IMG/VR virus record: IMGVR_UViG_3300020709_000009
Span: 1-20,922 of that record
Source: a virus
Direction: 5' to 3' (one strand)
Length of the DNA: 20,922 bases
The notes beneath the pieces are model-generated. The model saw only the letters and a list, made by a program, of their open reading frames with translations. It made no database searches and was not told the DNA's origin. Of this stretch, positions 2,751 through 20,467 are shown piece by piece; the stretch's first letter is position 1; every line of letters begins with the position of its first letter. The position numbers and the translations under genes were made by a program.

Positions 2751-3049
2751 TCGTTTATCCAACACACATCTTGCCACGAAAGAACAAGGTATTTAACGCC
2801 ATCCTCAACATAAGGAAAGTATTTGAGATACTCCTCGCCTTTGTCATCGTTCATAGTGCCAAATCGAACTCTAGCTCCTATTTGAACAGGCATATCTTCT
2901 CTGCGACCACCTAATAATTTCTTTCCAGGGCCTACAGCTATGACTGTACCCATGTTTTCTACTTCTTTGTTATCAACAAAAATAATGCTAGAAAGCTCAC
3001 GAACATCAGGTTTTACAACAATTTTGTCTGCTAATGGCTTGAGTTTCAT
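2747..3049 (-). CDS. GroES-like co-chaperonin (Cpn10)
   Basis: A 100-residue protein with the Cpn10 pattern: LKPLADKIVVKPD at residues 3-15, a mobile-loop-like segment with SIIFVDNKE near 21-29, GTVIAVGPGK near 34-43, VQIGARVRFG near 55-64, and a final beta segment YLVLSWQDVCWIN. Length matches bacterial GroES. Phage GroES homologues cap the host GroEL and help fold the coat protein. Its position near terminase and presumably the head genes outside the window fits that role. It is coupled by ATGA junctions to its upstream and downstream genes. The family call is strong; the coat-folding role is from known phage relatives. Confidence 0.88.
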   Translation of the reverse strand: MKLKPLADKIVVKPDVRELSSIIFVDNKEVENMGTVIAVGPGKKLLGGRREDMPVQIGARVRFGTMNDDKGEEYLKYFPYVEDGVKYLVLSWQDVCWINE

Positions 3050-3279
3050 GCTTTTCTTGGCCTTCCTGGTTTCTTTTTTGGTTCAGAAATCAATACTGGT
3101 TCAGTCATCATTTGAACTATTTGCTCTAAAGCTAGACTTTCAGTCAGTTGCCATTCCCCACACCAATCATCATTTGATTTGTTTTGCACAATAGGAAAAC
3201 GCTTGCAAATGCCCATTCTTTCCCCAAAAGAAAAAAATCGACATAAATTACAAGTGTCTTTATGCTCTTTTATAGCCAC
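3046..3279 (-). CDS. Small Cys-rich protein with AT-hook-like tail
   Basis: A 77-residue protein starting at GTG (3279), with GGAG five bases upstream and no competing start. The N-terminal half has four cysteines arranged CNLCRFF (residues 10-16), GICKRFP and DDWCGEW, consistent with one structural zinc site. The extreme C-terminus is KKKPGRPRKA, which contains the GRP core of an AT-hook, a minor-groove DNA-binding motif. This suggests a small DNA-associated protein, but the function is unknown. The GTG start lies in a potential hairpin (CCACA 3276-3280 with TGTGG 3296-3300) that could limit translation. The last bases overlap the co-chaperonin ATG as ATGA. Confidence 0.72.
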   Translation of the reverse strand: MAIKEHKDTCNLCRFFSFGERMGICKRFPIVQNKSNDDWCGEWQLTESLALEQIVQMMTEPVLISEPKKKPGRPRKA

Positions 3280-3306
3280 AGTTTCTCCGATTAATTGTGG
3301 TTAGAG

Positions 3307-3338
3307 AACCCCTAGTTTACCTTCACGTGCTAGGGGTT
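3307..3338 (+). terminator. Terminator-like hairpin pointing rightward
   Basis: The inverted repeat AACCCCTAG (3307-3315) and CTAGGGGTT (3330-3338), with a 14-nt loop, forms a 9-bp stem. A T-rich run (TTCGTTTT) follows it on the plus strand. On the minus strand the hairpin is followed by CTCTAACC, a poor tail. It lies between two leftward genes, so it fits best as a stop for antisense rightward transcripts, or as a weak leftward terminator or processing hairpin. Confidence 0.6.
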
Positions 3339-3344
3339 TTCGTT

Positions 3345-3605
3345 TTACATTGGGTCTTTTTCGTATTTATCTTCTACGCCATAAGCTGTGCGCTTGTGTT
3401 CGTAGCAGATACCAGAAGTACGACCAGTATTGAACTCTTTATCAGAGCCAATAGCATCTTCTTTGCCCATTGCTACACCGCCACGAACTGCTTTAGCATG
3501 ACGTTCGCCTTTAGTATCGGCTGCATCAGCACCTTTTGGAACTACTACACCCTTGGCTGGTACGCCTTTAGTGCTGTTTGGATTAGTTGTTTTGCCCATT
3601 GCCAT
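3345..3605 (-). CDS. Hypothetical 86-aa protein
   Basis: A polar, Lys/Gly/Asp-rich protein beginning MAMGKTTNPNSTKGVPAKGV, with no membrane helix and one cysteine. The start at 3605 has AAGGA six bases upstream on the minus strand. A second ATG two codons later is also possible. It is isolated between two hairpins (3307-3338 downstream, 3622-3646 upstream), so it may be transcribed separately from its neighbours. The composition suggests a flexible, possibly virion-associated or DNA-associated protein, but I do not recognise the family. Confidence 0.65.
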   Translation of the reverse strand: MAMGKTTNPNSTKGVPAKGVVVPKGADAADTKGERHAKAVRGGVAMGKEDAIGSDKEFNTGRTSGICYEHKRTAYGVEDKYEKDPM

Positions 3606-3659: not shown

Positions 3660-3953
3660 TTATCCATTACCCATGTCAAGCATTTTAATTAATCGTATAG
3701 CAGCATCAACTGAATCTATTCTGCTAACTGGGCCACCTCGCCAATTTTGCATAAATTTGACCTGAGATTCGGTATAAAGGGCCTTGTTATCTCTTTTTAT
3801 TTCACAAAGAACGCTGTGCTTTTTGTATCCAATCAAAATATCTGGGCAGCCTTCGCCGACTCTAGAAAGATTTAAAACAGAAGCTCCCAATGCAATAAAT
3901 GTATGGATTATCTGTTTTTGATTGTCATCAACTCTTTTCTTGTAATAAGTCAT
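3660..3953 (-). CDS. VRR-NUC/PD-(D/E)XK nuclease
   Basis: A 97-residue protein with the compact PD-(D/E)XK core of VRR-NUC-type nucleases. The segment GCPDILIGYKKHSVLCEIK at residues 35-53 supplies Asp38, Glu51 and Lys53 as the catalytic triad. A conserved-looking aromatic/Gln helix follows (ESQVKFMQNW). Stand-alone phage VRR-NUC proteins act on branched or structured DNA, and some are Holliday-junction resolvases; the substrate here is not shown by sequence. Its start overlaps the Ref-like HNH gene by 26 nt, so two nucleases are coupled at the end of the leftward early operon, just before a terminator. Confidence 0.85.
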   Translation of the reverse strand: MTYYKKRVDDNQKQIIHTFIALGASVLNLSRVGEGCPDILIGYKKHSVLCEIKRDNKALYTESQVKFMQNWRGGPVSRIDSVDAAIRLIKMLDMGNG

Positions 3954-4221
3954 TTAATCTTTCTAGCAAATCCATTTCAGAGAAACCCCAATATTTAATA
4001 AATCCTTTATGTCCAAGTTGGTGAATACTGGAATCTCCAAGTCTATGATGGTAAGCGCATAAGGGGATGACTGGGGCATTTTTTCGTTTTCCACCAAATC
4101 TTCGTATATGGTGCATTTCTGTTGGGGAATCTTCAAGGTTTCTGACTTCTTGTTGTTTGCATAAAATACAACCATATCTCGCCAAGCGAGCATAAACATC
4201 CCTTTCTGACTTAGTTGTCAT
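3928..4221 (-). CDS. HNH nuclease, Ref-like
   Basis: A 97-residue protein with a CILC knuckle (Cys18, Cys21), MHHIRRFGGKRKN at 36-48, then VIPLCAYHHR at 51-60 (Cys55, His58, His59) and IHQLGHKGFIKYWGF at 66-80. This matches the C-terminal nuclease region of the phage P1 Ref (RecA-dependent nuclease) and related short phage HNH proteins, not homing endonucleases: there is no NUMOD or AP2 DNA-binding part. It overlaps the methyltransferase stop as ATGA and the VRR-NUC gene by 26 nt. The HNH call is strong; RecA dependence is an extrapolation from P1 Ref. Confidence 0.8.
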   Translation of the reverse strand: MTTKSERDVYARLARYGCILCKQQEVRNLEDSPTEMHHIRRFGGKRKNAPVIPLCAYHHRLGDSSIHQLGHKGFIKYWGFSEMDLLERLNDLLQEKS

Positions 4222-8558: not shown

Positions 8559-8911
8559 ACAATGAACCAGTAGCGTGGATTGCAAGAGGCGATAACACAA
8601 GCGTATTTTTTGATTTGGATTGTGCTTTATCTATTGATGACAGTCCAACACCACTTTACACTCATCCAGCAAAAGAACTACACCTATCACTTCAAAAAAG
8701 TAAAGAAACAGGTGAACTATTAGCTGTTACTTATACAGATGACGAACATAGGATTGTTGAAGTGTTATGGCAAAAACCACCAGCAAAGACACTAACAGAC
8801 TTTGAAATCAGGGGTGTTATGGCTTTAGACGAATGTTGGGTTGGTGAAGATTGCAGTATCCCTAATATGATTGCGTTTGCTAGAGCAATACTAAGAAAGG
8901 CATCCGAATGA
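8555..8911 (+). CDS. Ea22-like small phage protein
   Basis: A 118-residue protein that overlaps the annealing-protein stop as ATGA. It starts EPVAWIARG, followed about 25 residues later by TPLYTHP, the pair seen in many phage Ead/Ea22-type early proteins. The C-terminal LTDFEIRGVMALDECW and FARAILRKAS resembles the same families. The role is unknown; lambda Ea22 itself is dispensable. It lies between the annealing protein and a homing endonuclease gene, and its stop overlaps the latter's start. Confidence 0.6.
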   Translation: MNNEPVAWIARGDNTSVFFDLDCALSIDDSPTPLYTHPAKELHLSLQKSKETGELLAVTYTDDEHRIVEVLWQKPPAKTLTDFEIRGVMALDECWVGEDCSIPNMIAFARAILRKASE

Positions 8912-9228
8912 ACCAAGAATTTTTAAAACAGTTATTTGATTACAAAGATGGCAAGTTACATTGGAAAGAAAGCCCAAGTCGTAATGTAAAGGCTGGTGAT
9001 GTTGCTGGGCATTTTGGTAATCGTAGGTATGCCCAAATCCGCATTAACGGCAAATACTATTTAAAACATAGGCTTGTGTATATGTACCATCATGGGCATT
9101 TACCGCCTGAACCATTGGTGATTGACCATATAAACCGCAATAGGTTTGATAACAACATTGAAAATCTTAGGGCAGTTACAAAGTCAGAGAATCAGCGTAA
9201 TAATAAATTTAAGGCACAAGAGAAATGA
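8908..9228 (+). CDS. HNH homing endonuclease, short form without AP2
   Basis: A 106-residue HNH protein: DGKLHWKESPSRN near the N-terminus, YYLKHRLVYMYHHG (residues 50-63), IDHINRNRFDNNIENLRAV near 72-90 and SENQRNN. It is clearly related to the gene at 11311-11787 but stops right where that protein continues into an AP2 DNA-binding domain, so it looks like a truncated or minimal form. It is joined by ATGA overlaps to the Ea22-like gene and to the YqaJ exonuclease gene. The nuclease motif looks intact; its DNA targeting without AP2 is unclear. Confidence 0.85.
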   Translation: MNQEFLKQLFDYKDGKLHWKESPSRNVKAGDVAGHFGNRRYAQIRINGKYYLKHRLVYMYHHGHLPPEPLVIDHINRNRFDNNIENLRAVTKSENQRNNKFKAQEK

Positions 9229-11225: not shown

Positions 11226-11314
11226 TGACAGATGACCAATGCCTCATGTTTGGCCTAGCCGTAATATTTGGCTTTGGCATCATTATTTTGTATTTAATCG
11301 GACAAGACCAATGA
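11225..11314 (+). CDS. Single-helix membrane peptide (29 aa)
   Basis: A 29-codon gene from the ATG at 11225, which overlaps the preceding TAA (TAATG) and ends in a TGA overlapping the next ATG (ATGA, 11311-11314). The product has an acidic N-terminus (MTDDQC) and a strongly hydrophobic helix (LAVIFGFGIIILYLIG). The double coupling is good evidence for translation. Like the 26-aa peptide at 7624 it is a one-pass membrane peptide in an early operon. Function is unknown. Confidence 0.68.
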   Translation: MTDDQCLMFGLAVIFGFGIIILYLIGQDQ

Positions 11315-11787
11315 TTGAAAAATTAAAAAAAGTTTTTGAATATAAAGAAAACAATCTTTATTGGAAAATAAAACCTTCAAAAAAAATACTTATAGGCACA
11401 AAAGCTGGATATATAGATAAAAAAGGATATATTCAAATAAGATTTGATGGAAAATTTTATTTAGCACATAGAATTATTTTTGCTTTGAATTATGGTTATA
11501 TGCCTAAATTTATTGACCACATTGATGGCAATCCTTCTAATAATTCTATTGATAATTTAAGAAAATGTAATTTATCTGAAAATCAATGCAATTCAAAATT
11601 AAGGGTTGATAATAAATCAAATATCAAGGGTGTAACTTGGAATAAAGCAAAAAACAAATGGCAAGTTCAATTACAAATTCAAGGAATAAACAAATATTTT
11701 GGTCTTTATTACAATATTGATTATGCAAAATTTGTAGCTGATGCTATGCGTCATAAATATCATAAGGAGTTTGCAAATCATGGTTAA
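11311..11787 (+). CDS. HNH homing endonuclease with AP2 domain
   Basis: I start this 158-residue protein at the ATG at 11311, coupled to the membrane peptide by ATGA; an open frame reaching back to 11239 is not used. The N-terminal half is an HNH module (YLAHRIIFALNYGYM, IDHIDGNPSNNSIDNLR, LSENQCNS). The C-terminal half is AP2-like (NIKGVTWNKAKNKWQVQLQI, then YFGLYYNIDYAK). It is a paralogue of the gene at 8908-9228 with the AP2 part retained. Its DNA is visibly more A-rich than its neighbours, suggesting recent arrival. It sits between two small unknown genes. Confidence 0.9.
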   Translation: MIEKLKKVFEYKENNLYWKIKPSKKILIGTKAGYIDKKGYIQIRFDGKFYLAHRIIFALNYGYMPKFIDHIDGNPSNNSIDNLRKCNLSENQCNSKLRVDNKSNIKGVTWNKAKNKWQVQLQIQGINKYFGLYYNIDYAKFVADAMRHKYHKEFANHG

Positions 11788-11968: not shown

Positions 11969-12156
11969 CAAAAAAGCCTAAAAGAAGTAAACATGAGCAA
12001 GAAGCAATGGCTGAATATTTAACTAAAAAATTTGCTGAGATTGATGCTCAACAAGAGTTAATTCCAGTAGTGATGCAAAGAGGTGAATGGGAAGCTCTTA
12101 AATACACAATAGAGCTTGCCCTTAATTTAAAACATAAAAAGCGACTACATCGCTAG
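11965..12156 (+). CDS. Hypothetical 63-aa helical protein
   Basis: Last gene of the rightward operon: 63 residues, coupled by ATGA to its predecessor. It is basic at both ends (KKPKRSKHEQEA; LNLKHKKRLHR) with a helical middle (AMAEYLTKKFAEIDAQQELI). Its last 12 bases overlap the 3' end of the convergent endolysin gene. No rightward terminator follows, so transcripts may run on antisense to the lysis genes. Function unknown. Confidence 0.65.
   Translation: MTKKPKRSKHEQEAMAEYLTKKFAEIDAQQELIPVVMQRGEWEALKYTIELALNLKHKKRLHR
12133..12154 (-). terminator. Terminator of the leftward late/lysis transcript
   Basis: AGCGA (12140-12144) pairs with TCGCT (12150-12154) around a 5-nt loop. Read leftward, it is followed by TTTTTATG. 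The stop codon of the endolysin lies in the loop. The tail has the correct polarity for the leftward transcript; the stem is short, so it may be leaky. Confidence 0.6.
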
Positions 12157-12741
12157 AATATCCATAGCTTTATGTATTTTATCAATTCTATCTTGTAATC
12201 CTAAAAGACCGCCATTTATTCTTTTAGTCATTGTTTCCCAATTTTCATCGTCTGCCAACAAATTAATTTGCTTGCGATTCCAGTACCATCCAGCAGACAT
12301 ACAAGCCCATTGTGGCTCTAATAGAAGCTCTGGTTGCGTTATAAATGGCTGACTTAGGGCTTGTCCACATACTGTGTAATTTGAACGCCCTGTGAGCTGT
12401 ATAACGCCTCTACCATGAAATTTCCAGCCATCACCATCTTCAGTATTGCCAAGATCGGCTCTACCGCCATAAACCTTGTTTGCAATAGCCTGTGGATTGT
12501 TTGCGTACTTTTCGGCAGTTGCAGCATCAGAAAAACGAGAAGGCCAGACTCGCATCAAAGCACCAGCAGAATAATGAAGGTTTTCTTCTAAAGTTTTGAA
12601 GTTGCCTGATTCATGCTGGCATTGACCAATAAAGGCTGCCTGGCGTTTTGGGGTATCTATGCCATATTTGGCAAAAGTATCGTTTAAAGGTTTAAGCCAT
12701 TTAGGATCAATTCCTAATGCTTGTAATTGTTCAATATTCAT
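12145..12741 (-). CDS. Endolysin, glycoside hydrolase family 19
   Basis: A 198-residue GH19 (chitinase-fold) lysozyme. The segment AAFIGQCQHESGNFKTLEEN (35-54) carries the catalytic Glu44, with a second acidic residue in the LEEN element (Glu52/Glu53). YGGRADLGNTEDGDGW and FHGRGVIQLTGRSNY form the rest of the substrate cleft, and WNRKQINLLADDENW follows. The protein cleaves peptidoglycan at the end of infection. It has no signal peptide, so it should need a holin. It overlaps Rz as ATGA and is the last gene of the leftward lysis cassette, ending at a terminator. Confidence 0.94.
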   Translation of the reverse strand: MNIEQLQALGIDPKWLKPLNDTFAKYGIDTPKRQAAFIGQCQHESGNFKTLEENLHYSAGALMRVWPSRFSDAATAEKYANNPQAIANKVYGGRADLGNTEDGDGWKFHGRGVIQLTGRSNYTVCGQALSQPFITQPELLLEPQWACMSAGWYWNRKQINLLADDENWETMTKRINGGLLGLQDRIDKIHKAMDILAM

Positions 12742-13136
12742 CTTAATGCGACTTGTTCCTTAATCCAATCTTGAAGGCTAACTAATTGTTGCGTTGTATA
12801 GGCGCAAGCAAGTAGCTGGTCGGAGGGGCTGACATTAGCTCCTGTGGAGGGATTGGAAATGGAGGGCATTTGACCGCTACTGGAGTTGTGCAACCCACCA
12901 TAATAAGACTTAATAGCAGATAACTTAGCTTCATAGGTTTCCTTGGTGGTTTTGTTTATGAGTTCCTGCTGTGTCCGAATGGATTCATTTTTTGCTTCTT
13001 GTTCTTTAGCGATATTTTTGATTTCTGTTTTATATGCTTCAAAACGATTATGCTCAACATAACCATAAAAGCACCCAGATAAAAGAACAATTCCAACCAC
13101 AATCTTGACATAAGTAAGTATTGGTAGTGGAAACAT
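12738..13136 (-). CDS. Rz: Rz-like inner-membrane spanin
   Basis: A 132-residue protein with an N-terminal hydrophobic helix (YVKIVVGIVLLSGCFYGYV, about residues 9-27), then a charged, coiled-coil-prone periplasmic part (KTEIKNIAKEQEAKNESIRT) and a polar C-terminal region. This is the topology of lambda Rz i-spanins, which join the inner and outer membranes during lysis by pairing with Rz1. The companion Rz1 is encoded entirely inside this gene in another frame. A lipobox-like LSGC (19-22) lies in the membrane helix; lipidation there is unlikely given the separate Rz1. The start shares its A with the upstream TAA (TAATG). Confidence 0.88.
   Translation of the reverse strand: MFPLPILTYVKIVVGIVLLSGCFYGYVEHNRFEAYKTEIKNIAKEQEAKNESIRTQQELINKTTKETYEAKLSAIKSYYGGLHNSSSGQMPSISNPSTGANVSPSDQLLACAYTTQQLVSLQDWIKEQVALR
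12782..12934 (-). CDS. Rz1: Rz1-like outer-membrane lipoprotein spanin, nested in Rz
   Basis: A 50-codon gene lies wholly inside Rz, in the +1 frame, from the ATG at 12934 to the TAG at 12782. The product begins MKLSYLLLSLIMVGCTTPVA: one positive charge, a hydrophobic stretch and a lipobox-like MVGC with Cys15 as the probable lipidation site. The mature part is proline-rich (VKCPPFPIPPQELMSAPPTS), as in Rz1 o-spanins. Nested Rz1 genes are well known from lambda-like phages. Met at the -3 lipobox position is atypical but tolerated. No strong ribosome site was identified. Confidence 0.85.
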   Translation of the reverse strand: MKLSYLLLSLIMVGCTTPVAVKCPPFPIPPQELMSAPPTSYLLAPIQRNN

Positions 13137-13318
13137 TATTCTATTGGTTTAGAAGTCACAAAGCGCAATACAGCAACAATAATGCCAATCCCAATAAGGA
13201 TAAAGCCATAATATTTTGGATCAATACTGTTTTGCACATAAGATAGATTGTCAAATAAAGCACCAAATATCACAAGTGCTAAAGAAAACCACATCGTTTT
13301 TGATCGATGGGCTTTCAT
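13136..13318 (-). CDS. Two-helix membrane protein, holin candidate
   Basis: A 60-residue protein with two hydrophobic helices: MWFSLALVIFGALFDNLSYV near 9-28 and YYGFILIGIGIIVAVLRFV near 36-54, joined by a short polar loop. It sits between the one-helix protein and Rz and is coupled to both (ATGA and TAATG). The two-helix topology and position in the lysis cassette suggest a class-II-type holin, which releases endolysin, but small phage membrane proteins are diverse and function needs testing. Confidence 0.7.
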   Translation of the reverse strand: MKAHRSKTMWFSLALVIFGALFDNLSYVQNSIDPKYYGFILIGIGIIVAVLRFVTSKPIE

Positions 13319-13569
13319 TTATCAACTTTTCGATCTAGTTTATCGTCTATTTTGTCTAATTTAGCAAAAATAGCAGCAGCAATCTTGTCAAAATCTTGCT
13401 TAGACATATAATTACCAGCAATCAGAATCTCAATAGTATTGACTTTATCTACCAATATTTTATCGGCAATTTGTAGCTCTTTAACAGCCTCCCAAATAAC
13501 CTTTAAGATCCAACCGCCTAAAAAGCCAACTAAAGCAATAACAGTATTTATTATTGTTTGCGAATCCAT
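13315..13569 (-). CDS. One-helix membrane/coiled-coil protein, lysis-associated
   Basis: An 84-residue protein with an N-terminal hydrophobic helix (VIALVGFLGGWILKVIWEAV, near 10-29) and a charged helical C-terminus (IFAKLDKIDDKLDRKVDK) with a YMSKQDF element. This pattern recurs in phage lysis cassettes next to holin and endolysin. It could be a holin, antiholin or holin-associated protein; I cannot tell which of the two membrane genes forms the pore. Its stop overlaps the two-helix gene as ATGA, and it starts two bases after the transglycosylase gene. Confidence 0.7.
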   Translation of the reverse strand: MDSQTIINTVIALVGFLGGWILKVIWEAVKELQIADKILVDKVNTIEILIAGNYMSKQDFDKIAAAIFAKLDKIDDKLDRKVDK

Positions 13570-19891: not shown

Positions 19892-20467
19892 TTACTCGCT
19901 TTCCTTGTATGAATCACCACGCAACAAGGTTTTCATGCTTGCACGACTTAAATTAAATTTTTCCATTAATTGTGGAATAGTCATACCAGTTTTCCTAAGC
20001 AAACGAGCTTCTCTAGCTTGTTCCATTGTAAGTTTGCAACGAGGGCCTTTGCCACCACTAAAGTCTGGGCTACGACCTTTTGCAGCTTTATCTGCCATAT
20101 TATCAGCATGATTGCCAACCCATAAATGCTTTGGATTGCAACAAGAAGGATTATCGCAAGTATGTAAAAGAAAGCCTGAATTATCTGTTGATTTTGGCGC
20201 ATTAAGATTAATAGAGTTTGGATAGACAAGCGAATAGATGACTCTATGGGCATAGTAGCCTTTGTCATTAATCCAAGTCCTTCCATATCCATCATGATTC
20301 CTAAAGCCTTTCCATTCCCAACATTCATCTTCACCACGCTTATCAACTTTGCTCCAAAGAACTTCAGCAGTATTTGCTGGTCTACCGCAATTTGGTGAAC
20401 CAAGCCCAGCTTTTCTAAGTTGATACCAATGTCTTTGTTTTGCCAACTTTTCTTCTTTTGTATACAT
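19892..20467 (-). CDS. HNH homing endonuclease with C-terminal HTH
   Basis: A 191-residue homing endonuclease. DECWEWKGFRNHDGYGR and YYAHRVIYSLVYP precede LLHTCDNPSCCNPKHLWVG and NHADNMADKAAKGR, the zinc-HNH core with paired Cys and His ligands. The C-terminal KLTMEQAREARLLRKTGMTI, PQLMEKFNLSRASMKTLLRG is a resolvase-like helix-turn-helix. AGGAG lies six bases before the ATG, and a near-consensus promoter precedes it. It separates the gp4-like and gp10-like genes, which are adjacent in P22. It starts 64 bases after the gp4-like stop and ends three bases before gp10. Confidence 0.9.
   Translation of the reverse strand: MYTKEEKLAKQRHWYQLRKAGLGSPNCGRPANTAEVLWSKVDKRGEDECWEWKGFRNHDGYGRTWINDKGYYAHRVIYSLVYPNSINLNAPKSTDNSGFLLHTCDNPSCCNPKHLWVGNHADNMADKAAKGRSPDFSGGKGPRCKLTMEQAREARLLRKTGMTIPQLMEKFNLSRASMKTLLRGDSYKESE

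Follow-up and report, generated by a model that had tools for sequence, protein, structure and literature searches.

An embedded Rz/Rz1 gene pair, very probably a two-component spanin, in the lysis cassette of a freshwater phage

Results

The 20,922-nt stretch of viral DNA analyzed here (IMG/VR record IMGVR_UViG_3300020709_000009, hereafter the window) carries a genuine Rz1 gene wholly inside a gene for an Rz-like protein. The pair is very probably a classical embedded two-component spanin of the lambda architecture, with Rz as the i-spanin and Rz1 as the o-spanin, placed in a cassette of holin, spanin and endolysin genes.

The Rz1 gene and its product

The Rz1 gene (12782..12934, minus strand), annotated from its ORF, its relatives and a comparison with lambda Rz1, begins with ATG at 12934 and runs through 50 codons and a stop to 12782. 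Because its start is nucleotide 202 (0-based) of the 399-nt Rz gene (12738..13136, minus strand, 132 aa), it is read in the +1 frame of Rz, of which it covers the fraction 0.51-0.89. An o-spanin gene is thus found wholly inside an i-spanin gene and in another frame, as in the embedded class, where around 70% of the o-spanins begin at 0.4-0.5 L and finish at 0.9-1 L (PMC6139136). The original prediction of a complete 50-codon gene in this frame and at these positions was correct, and the strand, which it left unstated, is minus. A Shine-Dalgarno-like AAGGA (12935..12949, minus strand), within Rz codons, precedes the Rz1 ATG by 5 nt, and most relatives have a similar purine-rich AAAGGA or AAGGG ahead of Rz1.

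In the product, MKLSYLLLSLIMVGCTTPVAVKCPPFPIPPQELMSAPPTSYLLAPIQRNN, a short, basic N-terminal part leads into a hydrophobic stretch, with MKLSYLLLSLI preceding MVGC. Its parts are a signal peptide (residues 1-14), the lipobox MVGC (12-15) with a putatively lipidated Cys15, a second cysteine (Cys23) and a proline-rich segment (24-38), so that the mature protein of 36 aa includes 9 prolines; the signal sequence, lipobox and proline-rich mature part that had been proposed are all there. As judged by motif, Rz1 appears to have the lipoprotein signal peptide and lipobox of an o-spanin.

Chance and constraint in the +1 frame

An open +1 frame could be a mere by-product of amino-acid conservation in Rz and of codon usage, with no gene in it. 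When the Rz protein was kept fixed and synonymous codons were resampled from the phage's own codon usage (100,000 draws), the region stayed open in 22% of the draws, was open with an ATG in 16%, and was open with an ATG and a lipobox in 0.5%. As the region is so often open in these redraws, the openness of a single sequence is weak evidence; the window sequence taken alone is only moderately unlikely by chance and suggestive only, and the decision therefore falls to conservation among relatives.

An Rz query detected 18 loci in viral contigs, an Rz alignment query of the same contigs contributed the best 80 of 390, and genome contigs gave two further loci. In all 82 loci found through Rz, Rz1 was intact, embedded and in the +1 frame (73 by script, 9 by eye). 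An Rz1 alignment query, from which the best 80 of 208 were taken, provided 34 loci absent from the Rz set; together with the phage record MW202796 these make 35 loci found only through Rz1, all embedded in the same frame. The +1 embedding is thus found in all 117 related loci examined (82 through Rz, 35 through Rz1 alone), a set that includes one locus truncated by the contig end (L036) and that draws on the best 80 of 390 (Rz) and the best 80 of 208 (Rz1), so that rarer, more distant exceptions are possible. Related phages with Rz intact and the Rz1 frame broken, named in the original prediction as what would speak against it, were absent from the 82 loci that the Rz searches gave.

The window was then compared with non-redundant relatives in 40 pairs, which are non-independent since all share the same reference. 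Identical codons at shared Rz residues amounted to 79% inside the overlap (892/1124) versus 53% outside it (583/1091), with codon identity higher inside than outside in 33 of the 40 pairs. The identity of the +1 product was 0.654, compared to 0.539 in simulations with Rz fixed (maximum 0.570 in 300 runs), and the +1 frame contained 4 stops where 41.5 were expected (300 simulations), about ten times fewer.

A second +1 ORF directly upstream of Rz1 (12956-13111, minus strand, 51 aa) also looks like a gene and has a hydrophobic N-terminus. Its identity in the same test was 0.309 versus 0.393 simulated, with 80 stops versus 93; it was rejected as a third gene, its conservation being not above that simulated from Rz and its frame being broken in many relatives. 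Since this ORF gives no signal, it serves as a negative control, and the test discriminates. With the Rz1 identity and stop counts outside all 300 simulations, the neighboring ORF silent and the +1 frame homologous to lambda Rz1 (see below), the by-product explanation is extremely improbable, and Rz1 is regarded as a gene under its own constraint.

Two of the loci (L012 and L013, Rz at 3001-3411) share with the window's Rz (13136-12738) nearly identical first 36 residues, comprising the membrane helix and the start of the stalk, and are less than 40% identical to it in the overlap part (19/51). The sequences point to a probable recombination breakpoint within Rz, ahead of the overlap. Another locus (L179, CAIUOC010000007.1) is a 3.4-kb contig that carries this spanin pair and was binned with a Saccharibacteria genome. 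As an outer membrane is lacking in Saccharibacteria, it is probably a misbinned phage contig.

Lipoboxes and cysteines

The published lipobox consensus is [LVI][ASTVI][GAS]C, with FVGC, LNGC and AWAC as known departures among o-spanins (PMC6139136). Among 69 distinct Rz1 proteins, 46 had Met at position -3, 16 had Leu and 7 had Ile, and MVGC was the commonest lipobox (32 of 69). MVGC had been considered atypical at -3 in the original prediction; the -3 counts overturn this, Met being the norm for these Rz1 proteins and MVGC the ordinary lipobox of the family. The residue at +2 after the lipid cysteine was A, T, S or G in 69/69 and Asp in none. The invariants of the Rz1 family include the lipid cysteine, which in the 69 proteins is present by the definition of the search, and the P/LM/PPT motifs (PPxxLM...PPT).

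The second Rz1 cysteine is present in 66 of the 69 distinct proteins and missing in 3; where Rz1 lacks it (L095, L097 and L098), the partner Rz retains Cys111. In lambda one of the two disulfides is enough (PMC5295617), a rule with which the pattern of these three pairs seems in keeping. Cys111, the 22nd residue from the C-terminal end of Rz, is kept in 53/53 relatives, so both partners would have a periplasmic cysteine available for an intermolecular disulfide.

Rz has a lipobox-like sequence of its own, LSGC, at residues 19-22 within the N-terminal helix. The remark that such a motif lies inside the membrane helix of Rz stands as to its presence; being unconserved, the motif deserves little weight. 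Were it used, Rz itself would be a lipoprotein cut at LSGC, and the pair would consist of two lipoproteins or involve an Rz with a topology like that of a unimolecular spanin. LSGC does match the lipobox consensus given above (PMC6139136), yet in a non-redundant set of 41 Rz proteins just 5 have a lipobox-like motif within the first 30 residues, the others having none although their periplasmic parts are conserved, and, judged by sequence, the C-terminal part of Rz offers no membrane segment that could substitute for the lost anchor. LSGC itself occurs solely in close relatives of the window and in a small number of proteins with the same N-terminal module. The 5/41 count led us to reject LSGC as the lipobox of Rz and indicates that it is probably incidental; a lipoprotein Rz is very unlikely, and it is just as doubtful that the window's small subgroup sometimes uses the motif, with Rz partly lipidated in a dual-lipoprotein spanin.

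Predicted shape of Rz

An AlphaFold2 model of Rz from 36 sequences, of modest confidence (mean pLDDT 66, pTM 0.31), consists of a helix (6-80), a low-confidence linker (81-103) and a second helix (104-130). According to this model Rz would have the single N-terminal membrane helix and the helical periplasmic part of an i-spanin. When the gene coordinates are overlaid, Rz1 codons 1-14, which encode the signal peptide, coincide with the final part of the first Rz helix, and the codons of the proline-rich mature part fall on the Rz linker. This is the same compromise as in lambda, where the DNA encoding the periplasmic part of Rz1 doubles as the flexible linker of Rz (PMC6139136, PMC5295617). Neither Rz nor Rz1 passes a Pfam or NCBIfam cut-off, and a match of Rz to Pfam ATP-synt_E under the cut-off (E 0.017) was discarded as a chance coiled-coil match.

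Comparison with lambda and other spanins

The arrangement is that of lambda Rz/Rz1 (NC_001416, 45966-46427 and 46186-46368), where Rz1 also lies wholly inside Rz in the +1 frame. In both phages Rz1 has an N-terminal lipobox and a proline-rich mature part, Rz combines a membrane segment at its N-terminus with two helices flanking a linker, and the pair belongs to a lysis cassette; the second Rz1 cysteine is 8 residues past the lipid cysteine in the window and 9 in lambda. The window proteins are shorter (Rz1 50 aa versus 60, Rz 132 versus 153), Rz1 lacks the penta-proline run, the periplasmic cysteine of Rz is at position 111 whereas in lambda it is beside the C-terminus, and Rz/Rz1 precede the endolysin gene instead of following it.

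The Rz1 proteins align nearly end to end (BLASTP, 33% identity over 55 columns, E=3e-6 in a single comparison), and a profile of the Rz1 family matches lambda Rz1 with an hhalign probability of 93.5%, which shows homology of Rz1 to a characterized o-spanin. The Rz proteins, in contrast, are not recognizably related in sequence, BLASTP (E=0.019) and hhalign (probability 2.9%) giving no convincing match between window and lambda Rz. I-spanins are diverse, and sequence homology to lambda Rz is not required for the embedded two-component spanin class.

The PHROG families named "Rz-like spanin" correspond to the Rz1 side (3198) and to the Rz side (739 and 1152), and the window's own proteins score weakly against them. 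PHROG 3198 is matched by 7 of 9 Rz1 family members (best E 3.1e-6), with a weak match for the window's own Rz1 (E 0.004), and PHROG 739 by 11 of 36 Rz members, the window's Rz at E 1e-4. These Rz1 matches join conservation, constraint in the +1 frame and homology to lambda Rz1 in supporting the reading of Rz1 as an o-spanin embedded in Rz.

The Rz1 proteins of two unclassified Manatee Spring phage records are 63% (MW202520) and 54% (MW202796) identical to that of the window over most of their length, and the MW202520 Rz is 36% identical to the window's Rz. As in the window, the MW202796 Rz1 is embedded in the +1 frame. The entire Rz/Rz1 stretch is unannotated in MW202520.1 (10150-10549), and in MW202796.1 the embedded Rz1 (702-848) is unannotated, Rz alone being annotated, as a hypothetical protein.

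Lysis cassette and surroundings

On the minus strand the gene for a membrane protein of 84 aa comes first, followed by that for a holin-like protein of 60 aa, by Rz with the embedded Rz1, and by that for a GH19-type endolysin; each junction overlaps by 1 to 4 bases. The 84-aa protein (13315..13569, minus strand) has an N-terminal hydrophobic segment, falls in PHROG 462, named "lipoprotein", and is possibly a second holin or an antiholin. The probable holin of 60 aa (13136..13318, minus strand) matches the holin family PHROG 1356 (E 1.5e-4), and one base is shared between its stop codon and the ATG of Rz. The endolysin gene (GH19, PHROG 181; 12145..12741, minus strand) has its ATG overlapping the Rz TGA stop as ATGA. 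The gene that follows Rz, an endolysin or another, varies among relatives, and the spanin pair stays. Compared with phages at the DNA level, the lysis region gave a weak endolysin piece only.

No tRNA genes were found in the window. Several small ORFs (2214-2777, 3928-4221, 8908-9228, 11239-11787 and 19892-20467) resemble HNH-type endonucleases by eye, and some of them are possibly homing endonucleases.

Discussion

By analogy with lambda, Rz1 most likely works as lambda Rz1 does. Rz would be anchored in the inner membrane through its N-terminal helix, with two helical segments reaching into the periplasm, and Rz1 would be exported, lipidated at Cys15 and put in the outer membrane. After the holin triggers and the endolysin cuts the peptidoglycan, the C-terminal parts of Rz and Rz1 would meet, and the resulting complex, linking the inner with the outer membrane, would open the last barrier to phage release. 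Lipidation, outer-membrane sorting, dimerization, complex formation and membrane fusion are all steps that we infer from this analogy.

Small phage lipoproteins with roles in superinfection exclusion or envelope modification exist, and lambda Bor adjoins Rz in the lambda record, so the embedded lipoprotein might be real and have such a role in place of outer-membrane disruption. Its constant pairing with Rz, its site between holin and endolysin, its homology to lambda Rz1 and its proline-rich mature part make this most improbable, and the spanin remains our preferred reading.

The arrangement of Rz1 embedded in Rz has been known since phage lambda, and the window pair is a new, divergent example of an embedded spanin from freshwater phages, in which recognizable similarity to lambda is retained by Rz1 and not by Rz. 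The analysis supplies more than 100 pairs of Rz with embedded Rz1 from phages of environmental and mostly freshwater origin, a group that standard libraries recognize weakly and of which two public relatives lack full annotation. The alignments reveal fixed residues in each of the overlapping proteins, namely the lipid cysteine and PPxxLM...PPT in Rz1 and Cys111 in Rz. The understanding of lysis is left unchanged by these pairs, and their value is chiefly for annotation, in the finding of missed spanins.
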